A stretch of DNA of 64,000 nucleotides from Microscillaceae bacterium (GTDB lineage Bacteria > Bacteroidota > Bacteroidia > Cytophagales > Microscillaceae). The DNA is taken from positions 1 through 64,000 of the forward strand of contig JANWZA010000037.1 of NCBI GenBank assembly GCA_025054775.1, given 5' to 3'. A model generated the notes under the pieces. That model did no database searches. It was not told where the DNA came from and saw only the letters and a program-made list of their open reading frames with translations. Numbering within the stretch: the first letter of the stretch is position 1; each line of letters starts with the position of its first letter. Both the position numbers and the translations under genes were made by a program. This document shows positions 48,268-59,147 of the stretch, piece after piece.

Positions 48268-50145
48268 ATGCTTCAAATTAAGAATCGATATTTTGTAGAT
48301 ACGTGCAATCGTTTGGTACATTTTCGTGGAATCAATTTGAGCAACAATTCCAAATTTCCTTTTTTACCACCTTTGCCTACTAATGAAAGTAGGAATTTGT
48401 ATAGCACCAAAACGATTTCGTTTCAAGGTCGCCCTTTTCCTTTACAAGAGGCTGACAATCACTTGCGTAGGTTGAAATATTTAGGTTTTAATTTGATACG
48501 CCTACTAGTGGTTTGGGAAGCTATTTGCCCTAACAGCCCTGAGAACTATGATGAACGGTATTTGGATTATTTGGTAGAACTTGTAAAAAAGATGCGTGAA
48601 TATGAATTTTACGTTTTGATAGATGCCCACCAAGAGACTTGGAGCAGGTTTTCAGGGGGGAGCGGTGCTCCAATGTGGACATTTGAACAAATCGGTTTTG
48701 AGGTAAGGCAATTCCATGAAGCAGGTGCGGCATTTATGCACCAACATACCTTACACTATAATACACGCTTTTGGGAAGCCAACTATGCTAAATTAGCTTC
48801 TGCTACCATGTTTACGCTCTTTTTTGCAGGTAGCGATTTTGCTCCCCTTACTTGCATACAAGGTGAAAATATACAACACTACTTGCAAAAACATTACCTT
48901 AAAGCCTTTCAACAAGTAGCTTTACGATTAGCTAGCTTCGACCACGTGTTAGGCTTTGAGGTTATGAACGAGCCTTCCGCAGGCTGGATTGGACAACAAG
49001 ACATACGACAACTGGAAACACAATACCGCTTCGGGGCCATGCCTACTCCTTTGGAGGCAATGGCCTCTGGTTCGGGCAATGTATGTAAGGTCAGTAATTA
49101 TACTTTTGACAGATGGGGCAGACCTAAACTCAAAGGCAAAGTTTTGCTTAATCACCGAGGTATCAAAGTATGGCAAAACGGCGTAAAATGTATTTGGAAA
49201 CAACACGAAGTTTGGGATATTGATAAAAATAACCTCCCTGTGGCTCTCAAACCTAATTACTTTGCCCAAAAGCACGGACAGAAAGTAGATTTCATTCAGC
49301 AATATTATCTACCTTTTGTAAAGCGATTTGTAGAAATGATACATCGTATCAATCCTAATAAATGGATAGGCATACACCAAGTTCGCGAGCAGCCTCCTCT
49401 CAACTGGCAGCAGATAGATATAAAACAGGCTTTCTTTGCTTTTGCTTGGACTGATCAAGTTACGTGCCGTACACAAAAATACCATGCTTGGCTTAACTAT
49501 GACCACAAGCAACAAAAAATACTTTGTACTCAAAAAGCAATCATGACAAGTTTTGCTACACAAGTTAAAGAACAACAAGAAAAAGCCACGCAACTTAATA
49601 AAAATGCTCCTGCAATTTGTATAAAAACGGGCATCCCTTTCAACCTCAACAAGCAAAAAGCCTATAAAACTAATAATTTTGACCACATAAACCAAGCCCT
49701 TGACTTTTTGCTCAAAGCTTTAGAAAGCCAACAACAGCCTTACGTCTTATGGAATTATACACATAATAACCGTAACGACTACGGCGACGGCTGGAATTTG
49801 GAAGATTACTCCATCTTTAGCCTCTCGCAAAGAGGTAAAGAACGCGACCTTTATACAGGCATACGTGCTATTGAGGCATTAGCGCGCCCTTATCCTTTGT
49901 TTTTAGCAGGAAAACTCACCTGCCTTGAGTTCGACTACAAGAAACATATCCTGAAAATCGTATTTGAACATTTTGAAGGTGTACATGCCCCTACTGAAAT
50001 TTTTTTGCCCGAAGTACATTTTCCTGAAGATAGCCTAATTACAGTAAGTGATGGAAAGTTTGAATTTATGCCTTACAAGCAAAAATTGATTTATCATCAT
50101 AGTATTGAAAAGTTCATTCATACTATTACCATAAAACGCAACTAA
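48268..50145 (+). CDS. GH5_12-like protein, probably catalytically inactive
   Basis: A 625-residue protein resembling glycoside hydrolase family 5, closest by motif to the fungal intracellular glucosylceramidase/sterylglucosidase group (GH5_12). Seen: RLLVVWEAICP, LIDAHQETWSRFSGGSGAP, ASATMFTLFFAGSDFAP, the acid/base motif GFEVMNEPSAGWIG (Glu235), LWNYTHNNRNDYGDGWN, and the PYPLFLAGKL-type C-terminal beta domain. The expected nucleophile motif (GExGIP) reads IKTGIP, with Lys453 at the glutamate position, and the usual His-x-Tyr loop reads AWTD. No signal peptide, so cytoplasmic. Substrate binding without hydrolysis is one inference; loss of a once-useful activity is another. Confidence 0.82.
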   Translation: MLQIKNRYFVDTCNRLVHFRGINLSNNSKFPFLPPLPTNESRNLYSTKTISFQGRPFPLQEADNHLRRLKYLGFNLIRLLVVWEAICPNSPENYDERYLDYLVELVKKMREYEFYVLIDAHQETWSRFSGGSGAPMWTFEQIGFEVRQFHEAGAAFMHQHTLHYNTRFWEANYAKLASATMFTLFFAGSDFAPLTCIQGENIQHYLQKHYLKAFQQVALRLASFDHVLGFEVMNEPSAGWIGQQDIRQLETQYRFGAMPTPLEAMASGSGNVCKVSNYTFDRWGRPKLKGKVLLNHRGIKVWQNGVKCIWKQHEVWDIDKNNLPVALKPNYFAQKHGQKVDFIQQYYLPFVKRFVEMIHRINPNKWIGIHQVREQPPLNWQQIDIKQAFFAFAWTDQVTCRTQKYHAWLNYDHKQQKILCTQKAIMTSFATQVKEQQEKATQLNKNAPAICIKTGIPFNLNKQKAYKTNNFDHINQALDFLLKALESQQQPYVLWNYTHNNRNDYGDGWNLEDYSIFSLSQRGKERDLYTGIRAIEALARPYPLFLAGKLTCLEFDYKKHILKIVFEHFEGVHAPTEIFLPEVHFPEDSLITVSDGKFEFMPYKQKLIYHHSIEKFIHTITIKRN

Positions 50146-50282
50146 CCTATCTCTTTTAGGCATTCATAAAAACTATTTCGTAATTTTATGCCTGGAAAGG
50201 AATGTTAACTGCTTTTCAAATCCATTCCTGTACTTATACTTATTCATTCTTATTCATTCTTACTTTACTTTGCATTAGTTGT

Positions 50283-51164
50283 ATGCAACTTATAGATGGC
50301 AAGCACGTAGCATCGCTCATACAAGCAGAAATTGCTCAAGAAGTACAGAATTTGAAAGAAAAAGGGCAAAAAATCCCACACTTGGCGGCTGTTTTGGTAG
50401 GAAATGATGCTCCTAGTGAAACTTATGTAAATGGCAAAGTGAAAGCCTGTCATAATGTAGGGTTTGGCTCTACCTTGCTACGCTTTCCTGACACAATTAG
50501 TGAAACTGCTCTTTTGGCAGAGATAGAAAAACTAAATCAAAATCCCGAAATAGATGGCTTTATTGTGCAGTTGCCTTTGCCTAAGCATATCGACGTAGTA
50601 AAAATTACTGAAGCGATTGACTACCGTAAAGATGTAGACGGTTTCCACCCTATCAACGTAGGGCGAATGGCAAAAAATCTACCTGCTTATATCTCTGCTA
50701 CACCACTCGGTATTTTGAAGCTATTAGAATATTACCAAATTCCTACCGTAGGTAGGCATTGTGTTGTATTAGGCAGAAGTCATATCGTCGGTTCTCCTAT
50801 GAGTATTCTTATGGCACGTAATACACCGATTGGTAATTCCACTGTAACGCTATGCCATAGCAAAACACAAAATTTAGCTGAGTATACACGCCAAGCCGAT
50901 ATTTTAATCGCTGCCATAGGTATACCACAATTTGTGAAAGCTGATATGGTAAAAGAGGGAGCTATCGTGATTGATGTAGGTATTAACCGCATAGAAGATA
51001 CTAAACGCAAGAGCGGTTTCCGTTTAGTAGGAGATGTGGATTTTGAAAAGGTAGCTCCTCGTTGCTATGCAATTACACCTGTTCCTGGGGGCGTAGGACC
51101 GATGACCATTACTGCACTCATGCTCAACACTCTGCTTGCAGCTCAGAAAAAAGTGTACGGTTAG
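50283..51164 (+). CDS. folD: bifunctional methylenetetrahydrofolate dehydrogenase/cyclohydrolase
   Basis: A 293-residue enzyme that interconverts 5,10-methylene- and 10-formyltetrahydrofolate. The start at 50283 (MQLIDGKHVASLIQAEI) is the family start; a longer frame begins at 50202 but would add a non-homologous hydrophobic tail. Catalytic region: DAPSETYVNGKVKAC (Tyr and Lys), PEIDGFIVQLPLPKH, DYRKDVDGFHPINVG. NADP-binding region: CVVLGRSHIVGSPMSILM. C-terminal TPVPGGVGPMTITALM is the second signature. Provides the formyl donor used by Fmt. Confidence 0.97.
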   Translation: MQLIDGKHVASLIQAEIAQEVQNLKEKGQKIPHLAAVLVGNDAPSETYVNGKVKACHNVGFGSTLLRFPDTISETALLAEIEKLNQNPEIDGFIVQLPLPKHIDVVKITEAIDYRKDVDGFHPINVGRMAKNLPAYISATPLGILKLLEYYQIPTVGRHCVVLGRSHIVGSPMSILMARNTPIGNSTVTLCHSKTQNLAEYTRQADILIAAIGIPQFVKADMVKEGAIVIDVGINRIEDTKRKSGFRLVGDVDFEKVAPRCYAITPVPGGVGPMTITALMLNTLLAAQKKVYG

Positions 51165-51329: not shown

Positions 51330-51403
51330 GCATCTGTAGTTCAACTGGATAGAATATCAGATTTCGGCTCTGAGGGTTGAGGGTTCGAATCCTTCCAGAT
51401 GCA
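51330..51403 (+). tRNA. tRNA-Arg (anticodon TCG)
   Basis: 74 bases: acceptor GCATCTG (51330-51336) with CAGATGC (51396-51402), D arm GTTCAACTGGATAGAAT, anticodon stem TCAGA/TCTGA enclosing TTTCGGC with anticodon TCG, T arm GAGGGTTCGAATCCTTC. CCA not encoded. It would read CGA and, with wobble, other CGN codons. Confidence 0.95.
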
Positions 51404-51428
51404 CTTGGTTTTTTTCTTTTTATTTTTC

Positions 51429-51875
51429 ATGAAACTACGCTTCGCCTTTCGAGCATGGCTATTACTTGGCATACTAGCTTGTGAAGCTTCCTCTGCCCAT
51501 CGCCATGAGCTTTTGGCTCGTAAATGGAAAATTGTGAATATAGAATCTGATCTTATTCGCAAAAATTTAGCCGAAGCCTCTGCCGAAGAAAAAAAAGCTT
51601 ACCAACAGAATTTGATTGATTTAAGCAAAAATTTGGTCATAGAATTTGAGATAAACGGAAATTATACACGTGTCCAAAAGAATTTAGAAGACCCGTCTAG
51701 CCCCTTGCTTACCAAAGGCAAATGGAAACTTAGCCCTGACCAAAAAAATATTGAAATAGAATACGAAACTCAACTTAAAGAGGTTATTCCAATCTTGAAA
51801 CTTACAAGTGAGGAGTTAGTTATTGAAATAACTGAAGATAAACAAAAAAGTACTTTTACGCTTAAACCACTTTAA
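51429..51875 (+). CDS. lipocalin-like exported protein A
   Basis: A 148-residue protein starting at MKLRFAFRAWLLLGILACEAS, a lipoprotein signal with Cys18 in LLGILAC. An upstream in-frame ATG at 51399 lies inside the tRNA-Arg gene and is rejected. The mature part resembles small Bacteroidota lipocalin-like proteins: LLARKWKIVNIESD, LVIEFEINGNYTRVQ, KGKWKLSPDQKNIEIEYE and LKLTSEELVIEI, an eight-stranded barrel pattern. Followed by a paralogue after 25 bases; probably one operon. Confidence 0.8.
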   Translation: MKLRFAFRAWLLLGILACEASSAHRHELLARKWKIVNIESDLIRKNLAEASAEEKKAYQQNLIDLSKNLVIEFEINGNYTRVQKNLEDPSSPLLTKGKWKLSPDQKNIEIEYETQLKEVIPILKLTSEELVIEITEDKQKSTFTLKPL

Positions 51876-51900: not shown

Positions 51901-52332
51901 ATGCAGTTGTATCAAAAAAGAGCTAGTCTGTTGCTTGGTTTTAGTTTCTGCTTTGCGGTGTTAGCTTTTACTTATCAAACTGATAGAACTAAACTCTTGA
52001 TAAGAAAATGGAAACTTATTGATGCCGAATTTCCTGAAATTGAAGCAGAACTTTTGCATTTCTCACCTAGCCAACGCAAAGCCCACAAACAAGAACTTAG
52101 CCGTACTTGGGTAGGTTCATTTATTGAATTTAGAAAAGATAATACTTATACAGCTGTTATTCTAGCAGATACCGCACAAGGTATATGGCACTTATCAACA
52201 GACCAAAGCCAACTCCTTATCAAAAATCAAAAAGATAGTATTGAGAGAGCTATGCCTATTTTAGAATTATCTAAAAACCGACTTATCTTGATCGGTACGC
52301 AACAACAAAAAATGATTTGGCAACCCTTTTGA
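51901..52332 (+). CDS. lipocalin-like exported protein B (paralogue of A)
   Basis: A 143-residue protein with a signal-like N-terminus (SLLLGFSFCFAVLAFTY; a lipobox is less clear than in A). LLIRKWKLIDAEFPEIEAEL, FIEFRKDNTYTAVI, QGIWHLSTDQSQLLIKNQ and PILELSKNRLILI follow the same strand order as protein A, including the RKWK start and PIL-L motif, so the pair arose by tandem duplication and diverged. Ligands unknown. Confidence 0.8.
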   Translation: MQLYQKRASLLLGFSFCFAVLAFTYQTDRTKLLIRKWKLIDAEFPEIEAELLHFSPSQRKAHKQELSRTWVGSFIEFRKDNTYTAVILADTAQGIWHLSTDQSQLLIKNQKDSIERAMPILELSKNRLILIGTQQQKMIWQPF

Positions 52333-55349: not shown

Positions 55350-55739
55350 TCATTTTAATCTGTAAAATTTATTAGGTAATTTACCTATTGCAGATTTATA
55401 ACTCAAACTATCTACCACTGCGGCGTATACCTCGTCTAGTAATTTCATATCTTTTAAGTAAAAGGCATAACTTTGGTGATAGGTAAGTGAATCTACCTGA
55501 TGCCATTTCAAGATTTGGCTTTGCATCATTTGAAAGGTTGCGTAAGCTGAGTCAGGAGAGGCATAGTTTTTTTCCATTACCATTGCCTCTGCAATATGCA
55601 AATCAACTAAGATATCAACCATTTTGGTTTTGGGTAAAATATTTTTAGGGATTTCTATTTGAGGTTGGCACGAAAGAGCAATAATTAAACAAAGAGTAAT
55701 TGAGTGGATTGTATTCCCGTCAAAGTTATTTTTTTGCAT
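55350..55739 (-). CDS. DUF4296 domain lipoprotein
   Basis: A 129-residue protein with a lipoprotein-like signal (LCLIIALSCQPQ; Cys23). The mature region MVDILVDLHIAEAMVMEKNY, with SPDSAYATFQMMQSQILKWH and SLTYHQSYAFYLKD, is the DUF4296 pattern, a Bacteroidota-only family. It lies nine bases downstream of porU on the same strand, an arrangement that I believe recurs in this phylum and suggests a link with type IX secretion; no mechanism is known. Confidence 0.85.
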   Translation of the reverse strand: MQKNNFDGNTIHSITLCLIIALSCQPQIEIPKNILPKTKMVDILVDLHIAEAMVMEKNYASPDSAYATFQMMQSQILKWHQVDSLTYHQSYAFYLKDMKLLDEVYAAVVDSLSYKSAIGKLPNKFYRLK

Positions 55740-55748
55740 ACTTTGCTG

Positions 55749-58700
55749 TTATTCTATTACCACTAGTTTACTACTTACTACGCTACTTTTTTTATCTTGT
55801 AAAGACTTGACTATCAGCCTATACATGTACACACCTTTACCCACGCGGTTGCCTCTATTGTCTAATCCGTTCCATTCGGCACGTAAGGGGGAGTGGCTGT
55901 CAGCAGGTGAGAATTCGGTTTTGAGTGTTTGTATCAAAGCCCCTTGGCTATTATAAATTTCTACAAACATTTCTAGCTCATCGCCCTCGCGGTTGTGTTC
56001 TACGCTAAAAGTGGTGCTTTGCGTCATGGGATTGGGGTAGTTCAATACATTTTTGAGGGCAACTACGGCATCAGTTTCTACAAAGAAGTTAATCGTTTCA
56101 ATGGCTTCATTGTTGAAGGTGTCCCAAGCACGCACTACAAAGAAATTTTTACCTTTGGGTAAATCAAAAAGTGGAAAATAAATTGAACCACCTTGGTAGG
56201 TATCTTTATTAGCTTTGTAATAGTTGTTTAGGAGATAGGTATTTTCAGCTTTTGCGTTGAGTGTGGCAGTGATATTTTGCCCAATATTCGTGTTTGTAAG
56301 GCTAATGCCACTTTCATCTTGAAGTTTTACAATTAAAGTAGTGTTTTTAGGCACGGTGCCACCCTCTTTGAATTGCTCGTTTTCCATAAAAAGTTGTATT
56401 TGTGGGGGGGTACGGTCTTGGGCAAGATTAGCTTGGGGATTTGTGCCTCCTATTACAAAGTCCAAGTTATAGCCTGCTGCATCAGTGGTTCGGGCATCAT
56501 TTACGGCATAAAAGCTAAATTTTGCTTTGCCAAATTGATAGTCAATATTTTTAGGGATAGGAAAGGTGAATTCAAATACACCATTTCGCACTGAAACTTC
56601 TCCTCTGAAAATCAAGCTATTACGAACTTCATAGCTCATAACAGGGGCTTTTTGTCCAAGGGTTTTTACTTCTTGTGGCTTGTCAAAAATGGTTACACTC
56701 AATTTGCCATTCCAAGTAAGAAGTTGATTTTGTTGGTTACGAACTTCCCCGCGTACTGTTACTTTGCTTAATGCTTTGAGCGTATCTGTGGGTAAATGGA
56801 TAGGTTTGTCGTTCAAGTGTGTAATTACTATTTGCTCTTTGGGATATGCTAACCGCATGGAAGGGTCGCCAAGTAAGGAAAAGTTGCGGTTTACAGGTCC
56901 GTTCAGACTACCGTTTTTCGTTTTTCGCATTATTTGCCCCAAACGTGGCATCTCTCCGTTAATTGGTTCAAATACATAACGGTAGAAGGCTTGATTAAGC
57001 AAAAAATTAGTACTTGAAAACACAGGACGGGTAGTGGTAATGAGGGCAATCCCTCCACCTCTTGGATTGAGCAAGACTTTTTCACCTCCTGAAACCACGC
57101 GCGGGTTGTCATATTTTCCAAACTCACAAGTAGCCGTAACAAACAAAGGCATATTGTCTAAATTTTTCCAACTTTCAATCATGCTATGGTCAAGGATTTT
57201 CTCTTCCGTCCAGCCTACTTCACCGCCGTGTCCTGTAAAGTTAATAATTAAGGCTCCGCGTTGTACTTCGCGATTGAGGGCATCACGCACTTCAGGCGAT
57301 AGGGCCCCTGTGGGTGTGGAAATTCGTGGAAAAGCATCAATATAAAATTTTTCTATATTCCAATTCAAATGATTTTGTGCTACATATTGTGCAAGTTGGT
57401 CGGCATCATATTGATGTATGTTTGCGTCGCCATCATCGGCAAAGAAGCTAATTCGGTTTTTCCAATCGTGCAAAGATTTGCTGTTGGTCGCATAGCTTAT
57501 CAACTTATTTACTACTGCTGTTGCCTCGCGCAGAGTACGAACAGGCAGCCTACCAATACCGATTTCTAGGGTGTGGTCGCCGCTAAAAGTTTCTGCCCAT
57601 GTGCCTTCATTATCTTCTAGAAAGCCAAAATAATCGTCAGAGGAGTAGCTAAAAATAGGATGTAAGGACTCATAGGACTCGTACACGGGTACAAGATTAT
57701 TGTTATTAGGAATACGTTTTTTATAATCAAAGGAGGCGGCACCAAAGAGCAAAAGGTAGCGTAATTCATTTGGATTGCGTTTGTATAACATTCGCACAAA
57801 GTCGCGAATAGCCGAAATATCTTGTCTTCCTGAGGCAAATTCGTTGTAAATTTGTTCGGTAGTAACTACGTGTACGCTCAAGTTATCATTAGTACGTCTA
57901 AAATTAGCTAGACGGTTGGCTTCTGAAAGGAAGCGAGGGTGCGTAACAATCACTAAATTTGGTGTAGAGAGGGCATGTAAATTTTGGTTAGGAATAGCTT
58001 GTATGCGTACAGGAGAGCGAAAATCTTGTCTACGGAACACAATAAATTCGCGCAAAGTATTAGTTTGGGTGCTAAAAATAGCTTGCGAACCATTAAGTAT
58101 AAATTGCTGATTAGCAGGTTGTTGGGGATTGGTAATATCCCAAATGGAAATATTATTGGGTACATTATCAATTACAAATTGACTAATACTTTGCGAAGTG
58201 CTGGCAATACTTCTAAATTGAGTTTGGTTGCCATATAGTTGTAATCTACGCAAATAGTTAATTCGCAGGAAGTTCAGGTGCCCTATGCCTGAGGCGCCGT
58301 TTCGGTTTAAGGTAAGACTAATTTGTAGGTTAGCGTTTCCGTCGCTATTAAAGTTAAAAGTATTAGTTACAAGTGTACCTTTGGCAGCATAGGTTTCAGG
58401 AAAGATGAGAGCTACGTTGTGTTGCCCTATTTCTTGCCCATTAGCACGTACAGAGAAGGTAACATCTCTAAAAAAACGCCCTAATACTGATGAGGTAAGC
58501 CTTACCATAGAATTAGGCACAATGCCCGTGACATTGAAATTCACAGTTTGCGAAGTATTAGCATCAAATACTTCCCCGAACCATTCGCGTCCAGAGTTGA
58601 GGATATTGTTGTCATTGCGTTCATGAAACTGGAAATCGTTATAGGTATCAATAGTTTGGGTAGCTCCTGAAAGGTTAGGTTGGGTCCCTATGCGAAGCCC

Positions 58701-59147
58701 TGCACGATTATCAACGCTCAGAAAGTAGAATGTAGTATCGCTATATACGTTAATTTCATGCTCAAAGAGCTGTTGAGAAGAATTGTACGAAATTTTATGT
58801 GGACTTTGGGCATAAAACAAAATAAAATCTTGACTATCAAATTTACCATCTTGTTCACCTTCTACCCAAATTGCATTTTCAGGCAGGTCGTCATAACGGA
58901 AGGCACTATTAGCTTGCGGAAGTGAGCCGCCTCCATAACCCCAAAGATGTATATTTTGCGGATTGATACTCTCTAGGGGAATTCCTGCTCGTTTAAGTGT
59001 TTCAAAATCAAGACGATAGATACCACTCTCTAATACAGCAATTTTATAGAAATTCCCCTCTGCAAGCACTGAATTAGCGGCATATTGTGCTTTTGCTATT
59101 TGGCATAGAACTAAATTTAGTGAAATTAAAAGTATTAAATGCTTCAT
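55749..59147 (-). CDS. porU: type IX secretion system sortase PorU
   Basis: An 1132-residue outer-membrane-associated gingipain-like (C25) cysteine protease that removes C-terminal sorting domains and attaches cargo to anionic lipopolysaccharide. A signal peptide (LILLISLNLVLCQIAKAQ) is present. The C25 catalytic pair is His640 in NFTGHGGEVGW and Cys674 in FVTATCEFGKYD. The C-terminal 100 residues have a FlgD-like/sorting fold (NYPNPMTQSTTFSVEHNR ... GKGVYMYRLIV), usual for PorU. A TATCTTTG -7 element lies upstream at 59364-59357. Its substrates in this window include the protein whose tail is at 1-590. Confidence 0.95.
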   Translation of the reverse strand: MKHLILLISLNLVLCQIAKAQYAANSVLAEGNFYKIAVLESGIYRLDFETLKRAGIPLESINPQNIHLWGYGGGSLPQANSAFRYDDLPENAIWVEGEQDGKFDSQDFILFYAQSPHKISYNSSQQLFEHEINVYSDTTFYFLSVDNRAGLRIGTQPNLSGATQTIDTYNDFQFHERNDNNILNSGREWFGEVFDANTSQTVNFNVTGIVPNSMVRLTSSVLGRFFRDVTFSVRANGQEIGQHNVALIFPETYAAKGTLVTNTFNFNSDGNANLQISLTLNRNGASGIGHLNFLRINYLRRLQLYGNQTQFRSIASTSQSISQFVIDNVPNNISIWDITNPQQPANQQFILNGSQAIFSTQTNTLREFIVFRRQDFRSPVRIQAIPNQNLHALSTPNLVIVTHPRFLSEANRLANFRRTNDNLSVHVVTTEQIYNEFASGRQDISAIRDFVRMLYKRNPNELRYLLLFGAASFDYKKRIPNNNNLVPVYESYESLHPIFSYSSDDYFGFLEDNEGTWAETFSGDHTLEIGIGRLPVRTLREATAVVNKLISYATNSKSLHDWKNRISFFADDGDANIHQYDADQLAQYVAQNHLNWNIEKFYIDAFPRISTPTGALSPEVRDALNREVQRGALIINFTGHGGEVGWTEEKILDHSMIESWKNLDNMPLFVTATCEFGKYDNPRVVSGGEKVLLNPRGGGIALITTTRPVFSSTNFLLNQAFYRYVFEPINGEMPRLGQIMRKTKNGSLNGPVNRNFSLLGDPSMRLAYPKEQIVITHLNDKPIHLPTDTLKALSKVTVRGEVRNQQNQLLTWNGKLSVTIFDKPQEVKTLGQKAPVMSYEVRNSLIFRGEVSVRNGVFEFTFPIPKNIDYQFGKAKFSFYAVNDARTTDAAGYNLDFVIGGTNPQANLAQDRTPPQIQLFMENEQFKEGGTVPKNTTLIVKLQDESGISLTNTNIGQNITATLNAKAENTYLLNNYYKANKDTYQGGSIYFPLFDLPKGKNFFVVRAWDTFNNEAIETINFFVETDAVVALKNVLNYPNPMTQSTTFSVEHNREGDELEMFVEIYNSQGALIQTLKTEFSPADSHSPLRAEWNGLDNRGNRVGKGVYMYRLIVKSLQDKKSSVVSSKLVVIE

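Follow-up and report, generated by a model that had tools for sequence, protein, structure and literature searches.

The fungal proteins closest to the one described here are Sgl1/EGCrP2 of Cryptococcus neoformans (7lpo), which we take to be a member of GH5_12, and SglA of Aspergillus fumigatus (8exd). The catalytic pair of Sgl1 is formed by Glu270 and Glu520, and changes at Lys47, His142, Asp144, Glu270, Tyr453, Glu520, Trp570 and Glu587 greatly reduced or abolished its activity, the E520S variant being described as catalytically inactive (PMC8497620). As presented in the GH5 classification paper (PMC3526467), GH5_12 is composed of a fungal clade and a clade dominated by bacteria. Here we analyse a bacterial homologue located in the window, that is, the whole stretch of 64,000 nucleotides of contig JANWZA010000037.1 under study, in which the positions corresponding to Asp144, Tyr453 and Glu520 of Sgl1 are occupied by other residues.

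The GH5_12-like gene and its family assignment

The features of the gene are the following (all on the + strand):
48268..50145, +: complete ORF of a GH5_12-like probable pseudoenzyme, 625 aa, single copy in the genome (translation; PF00150 and PF18564; PDB matches)
48352..48354, +: Lys29, equivalent to the glucose-contacting Lys47 of Sgl1, kept (alignment)
48634..48636, +: Glu123, where Sgl1 has Asp144 and 85/85 intact relatives have Asp (alignment)
48967..48972, +: Asn234-Glu235 of the acid/base motif NEP (Sgl1 Asn269-Glu270), kept (alignment)
49444..49455, +: AWTD at residues 393-396 instead of H[WF]Y[DE], with His393 replaced by Ala and Tyr395 (Sgl1 Tyr453) by Thr (alignment)
49624..49626, +: codon AAA for Lys453, which takes the place of the nucleophile (Sgl1 Glu520) where barrel strand 7 ends (codon; alignment; model)
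49750..49803, +: loop from Trp495 to Glu512, with the glucose contacts Trp495 and Glu512 (Sgl1 Trp570 and Glu587), kept (alignment)
49885..50133, +: PF18564, the beta-sandwich domain at the C-terminus, residues 540-622 (Pfam)

Translation of 48268-50145 (+) gave a stand-alone protein of 625 residues without internal stops and without an obvious signal peptide, encoded by the only GH5_12-like gene of its genome. Pfam recognised PF00150 and PF18564, the latter a C-terminal domain of GH5 proteins; the best sequence matches in the PDB were Aspergillus SglA (3.3e-94) and Cryptococcus Sgl1 (1.5e-70), with the bacterial endoglycoceramidases well behind, and the sole NCBIfam match was endoglycoceramidase I, far below the cut-off. 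The AlphaFold2 model (pLDDT 82.6, pTM 0.88) could be superposed on 612 residues of SglA at 2.4 Å (Z 41.3); Z was 40.8 for Sgl1 and 29 for endoglycoceramidase II. The protein thus belongs to GH5_12 by sequence and fold: its likeness to the two fungal members extends over the full length, both domains are present, and the superpositions reach a Z of about 41 over about 612 residues. The GH5_12-like character proposed in the initial annotation is well founded on these sequence, domain and fold comparisons. The phylum in which that annotation had placed the protein, described there as one that makes sphingolipids, was also the right one, the genomes of the same family being Microscillaceae (Bacteroidota). 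Its place is among bacterial homologues whose catalytic machinery is preserved, in the midst of those from Cytophagales.

Replaced and retained active-site residues

Residues were mapped by phmmer alignment to Sgl1 (chain index equal to the published numbering plus one). All the motifs on which the initial annotation was built (CIKTGIPFNLN, the codon AAA at 49624-49626, MNEP and AWTD) were read correctly, and the catalytic consequences drawn from them agree with the alignment. The segment 451-461 reads C451-I452-K453-T454-G455-I456-P457-F458-N459-L460-N461, in which Lys453 aligns with the nucleophile Glu520 of Sgl1; the Gly at position 452 is changed as well. The His-x-Tyr loop of strand 6 is lost, with Ala393 and Thr395 in AWTD, and the acid/base motif is intact, with Glu235 (codon GAG at 48970-48972; MNEP, residues 233-236) on Glu270 of Sgl1. 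Six of the nine catalytic or glucose-contact residues are kept (Lys29, His121, Asn234, Glu235, Trp495, Glu512) and three are changed (Asp144, Tyr453 and Glu520 of Sgl1 to Glu123, Thr395 and Lys453), besides the strand-6 His, now Ala393; the same four replacements separate the protein from SglA. At each of the four changed positions (123, 393, 395, 453), 94% or more of the 85 intact relatives share one residue.

Another glutamate at the end of strand 7, which the initial annotation had named as evidence against its own proposal, is absent. Strand 7 of the model comprises residues 449-454, and there is no Asp or Glu from residue 449 to residue 472, so no neighbouring carboxylate stands in for the nucleophile. 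With Tyr395, His393 and Asp123 replaced as well, the single change K453E would be unlikely to bring back full activity. In the proposed mechanism, Lys453 would sit opposite Glu235 in the pocket and remove nucleophilic catalysis, and a glucoside or glycolipid may be bound, but not cleaved, in the pocket lined by Lys29 (part of residues 28-51, which the model predicts poorly), His121, Asn234, Glu235, Trp495 and Glu512.

Relatives and a second degenerate copy

A single-protein search of the genome contigs confirmed no close relatives; an alignment query of GTDB genomes then found 283 relatives, of which the best 80 loci, most of them from Anaerolineae, were retained. The window protein was compared with a census of 86 relatives (GTDB loci without duplicates, plus genome and plasmid loci), 85 of which keep the nucleophile Glu, NEP and the strand-6 Tyr, a proportion to be read with the recruitment in mind: two peptide patterns were used, one of which reaches into an active-site motif (HQ[DE][VT]WSRF), so the census may under-sample degenerate copies. 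These 85 bacterial copies (Microscillaceae, Anaerolineae and others; L002-L004, L006-L012 and L021-L097 minus duplicates) are 32-45% identical over nearly the full length and, unlike the window protein, have lost none of the three elements; the strand-6 His is kept in 84 of them and is Asn in L063. Plasmid homologues were at most 34% identical, and both of the two that were aligned are intact. Three intact copies from another family of the same order (L008, L009, L010) carry a hydrophobic N-terminal extension, lacking in the window protein, and may therefore be exported.

The initial annotation had suggested looking for the same change in close relatives. Lys occupies the nucleophile position in none of the 86; the loss of the nucleophile as such does recur, in genome G005 of the same family, where it is replaced by Gln and the acid/base residue is gone too. 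This second degenerate copy (L005, G005:C8:163704-165581) resembles the window gene in its full ORF and in its fold (pLDDT 89.0; Z 43.7 on SglA). It differs in having lost both catalytic glutamates and more of the sugar-contact residues: SQVGIP replaces GE.GIP, HNP replaces NEP (Asn-Glu to His-Asn), VVWRE replaces HWYD, and Leu and Tyr occupy the positions of Lys29 and His121. Of the 114 positions at which 94% or more of the intact relatives agree, L005 keeps 89, and its losses are concentrated at the nine catalytic and sugar-contact positions (7/9 compared to 18/105, P 0.0003). At the same nine positions the losses of the window protein showed no significant enrichment (3/9 compared to 16/105, P 0.17), and the argument was therefore not used for it.

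The gene is present in 6 of the 15 family genomes; among the nine without a match is G009, the closest by ValS. In the ValS tree, the genome of the window grouped with G009 and with G001 and G010 (both with intact copies), and G005 lay in another clade; the species placement rests on this one marker gene, and horizontal transfer is possible. With vertical descent this topology implies two losses, and consequently the losses of the nucleophile in the window and in G005 were probably independent. A common origin of the two degenerate copies was considered and not adopted. The best gene tree, built without the active-site columns, does join them (94/55), yet both branches are long, the grouping of the window with the intact L002 was not rejected (p-AU 0.446), and the ValS tree separates the genomes. 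The two copies share three private residues, no more than other long pairs do. They also share 11 lost conserved positions (hypergeometric P 0.0002); since many of the shared positions lie in active-site motifs, this overlap does not count as a separate argument for common descent. That GH5_12-type lipid glucosidases of one family were converted, at least twice and independently, into retained non-hydrolytic binders of membrane glycolipids strikes us as unlikely.

Gene neighbourhood and possible ligands

The neighbours of the gene in the window are housekeeping genes (DUF34/NIF3, FolD, a tRNA and, by sequence, ValS) and point to no ligand; no conserved neighbours were found among the loci of the relatives, and no lipid or sugar-lipid theme among the neighbours scanned in the Anaerolineae loci. 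The only lipid-related neighbour seen was a patatin-like phospholipase gene adjoining the intact homologue of a Leptospira plasmid record (L011). Several other observations concern the surrounding ORFs. The listed FolD ORF (50202-51164, +) starts 27 codons early, its likely start being the ATG at 50283 (MQLIDGK). Two small adjacent ORFs follow on the + strand: 51399-51875, just under the Lipocalin_4 cut-off, and 51901-52332, which has no Pfam match and resembles the former by eye (RKWK motifs). The product of 55749-59147 (-), of 1132 aa with a peptidase C25 domain (PF01364), resembles PorU, the sortase of type IX secretion, and adjoins a DUF4296 protein at 55350-55739.

A search of the 15 family genomes for squalene/hopene cyclase found none (among the controls, Bacillus subtilis was positive); steryl glucoside made by these bacteria is therefore an unlikely ligand, also for the intact homologues. 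Glycosyltransferase searches (PF13506, PF03033) were not informative, since most control genomes also match. The contact residues retained in the pocket are the basis on which the window protein may bind a glycolipid or glucoside.

Evolutionary rate and rival explanations

We consider it fairly probable that the gene encodes a correctly folded protein of GH5_12 type (TIM barrel plus C-terminal beta-sandwich) whose retaining glycosidase activity was lost in its own lineage. We read the protein as a pseudoenzyme that folds but does not hydrolyse, and that selection has preserved either up to a recent time or to this day. A pseudoenzyme had been proposed in the initial annotation; with the nucleophile and the strand-6 His and Tyr gone and the ORF intact, that proposal is likely to be right. 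The G005 copy shows the same pattern of an intact ORF and a confident fold. The explanation competing most directly with this one is that the gene is dead or dying, catalysis being no longer needed, selection relaxed and the ORF not yet broken or deleted. The window branch of the gene tree (1.44, compared to a median end branch of 0.57) also fits relaxed selection, and in relative-rate comparisons with two outgroups the unique changes of the window protein exceeded those of L002 (124 compared to 49 or 44) and L006 (126 compared to 60, or 107 compared to 58), intact copies from its nearest genomes. The absence of the gene from most family genomes, G009 included, shows that it is dispensable there and counts against a maintained protein, and the degenerate copy in G005 points in the same direction. 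On the other side, there is no stop in 625 codons and there are few gaps relative to the relatives, the fold is confident, and 95 of the 114 family-conserved positions defined above are kept (83%). Under a neutral model (0.066 nonsense changes for each missense change), in which the excess change is taken to have come after the catalytic loss, an excess of 0.1 missense changes per site would have brought about 4 stops (probability of none about 0.02) and an excess of 0.3 changes per site about 12. As the ORF has none, the gene appears to have been constrained for most of its branch, with a recent release possible. We regard a dying gene as possible, though on the unlikely side.

The protein might instead still be an enzyme with altered chemistry, Glu235 serving as acid or base and Lys453 shaping a site for another reaction, or the nucleophile being supplied by the substrate or by another residue. 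The acid/base and most sugar-contact residues are kept, and nearly all Sgl1 point mutants have residual activity (PMC8497620); however, no new carboxylate has appeared near strand 7, the other acidic residues around the mouth of the barrel (E84, E235, D396, E512, D513) are ancestral, being found in intact relatives, and neither the Tyr nor the His beside the nucleophile is left. Such a conversion seems very improbable to us. An error of one base in sequencing or assembly is hardly credible: AAA is indeed one transition from GAA, but His393, Tyr395 and Asp123 are replaced in separate codons and Gly452 is changed too, so that, judged from the sequence, the replacements are a real cluster and neither an alignment slip nor one miscalled base. 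Returning to the folded pseudoenzyme, a role as regulator of an active paralog does not apply, because its genome holds no active copy, and a stand-alone binding role would be the most likely surviving function.

Comparison with known GH5 proteins

The window protein lacks two features of active retaining GH5 enzymes (the strand-7 nucleophile Glu and the strand-6 His and Tyr) and has a third (the strand-4 acid/base NEP), and, from what is known of the mechanism, it is very unlikely to carry out retaining hydrolysis in the usual GH5 manner. Automatic annotation would call the gene a cellulase or an endoglycoceramidase-like enzyme, which is very probably wrong. Two degenerate copies and intact ones within one family offer a natural series in which to follow the loss of catalysis by a lipid glucosidase and to ask if a binding role stays with the fold.

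The general picture of GH5 is not altered, dead members having already been described there: a section of PMC3526467 lists all GH5_30, groups near GH5_1 and GH5_8, one GH5_48 and Rsi24C-GH5, a cellulose-sensing protein of Clostridium thermocellum that interacts with cellulose though its activity is lost. No inactive GH5_12 was found in that section or among the titles and abstracts from a limited search of open-licence literature. With its GH5 fold and incomplete catalytic machinery, the window protein resembles these proteins, and it is very probably a non-catalytic GH5 protein, GH5_12 by sequence and fold, and not an active GH5_12 enzyme. The non-catalytic proteins described in that section belong to other subfamilies and several of them are extracellular modules fused to other domains, whereas the window protein stands alone.
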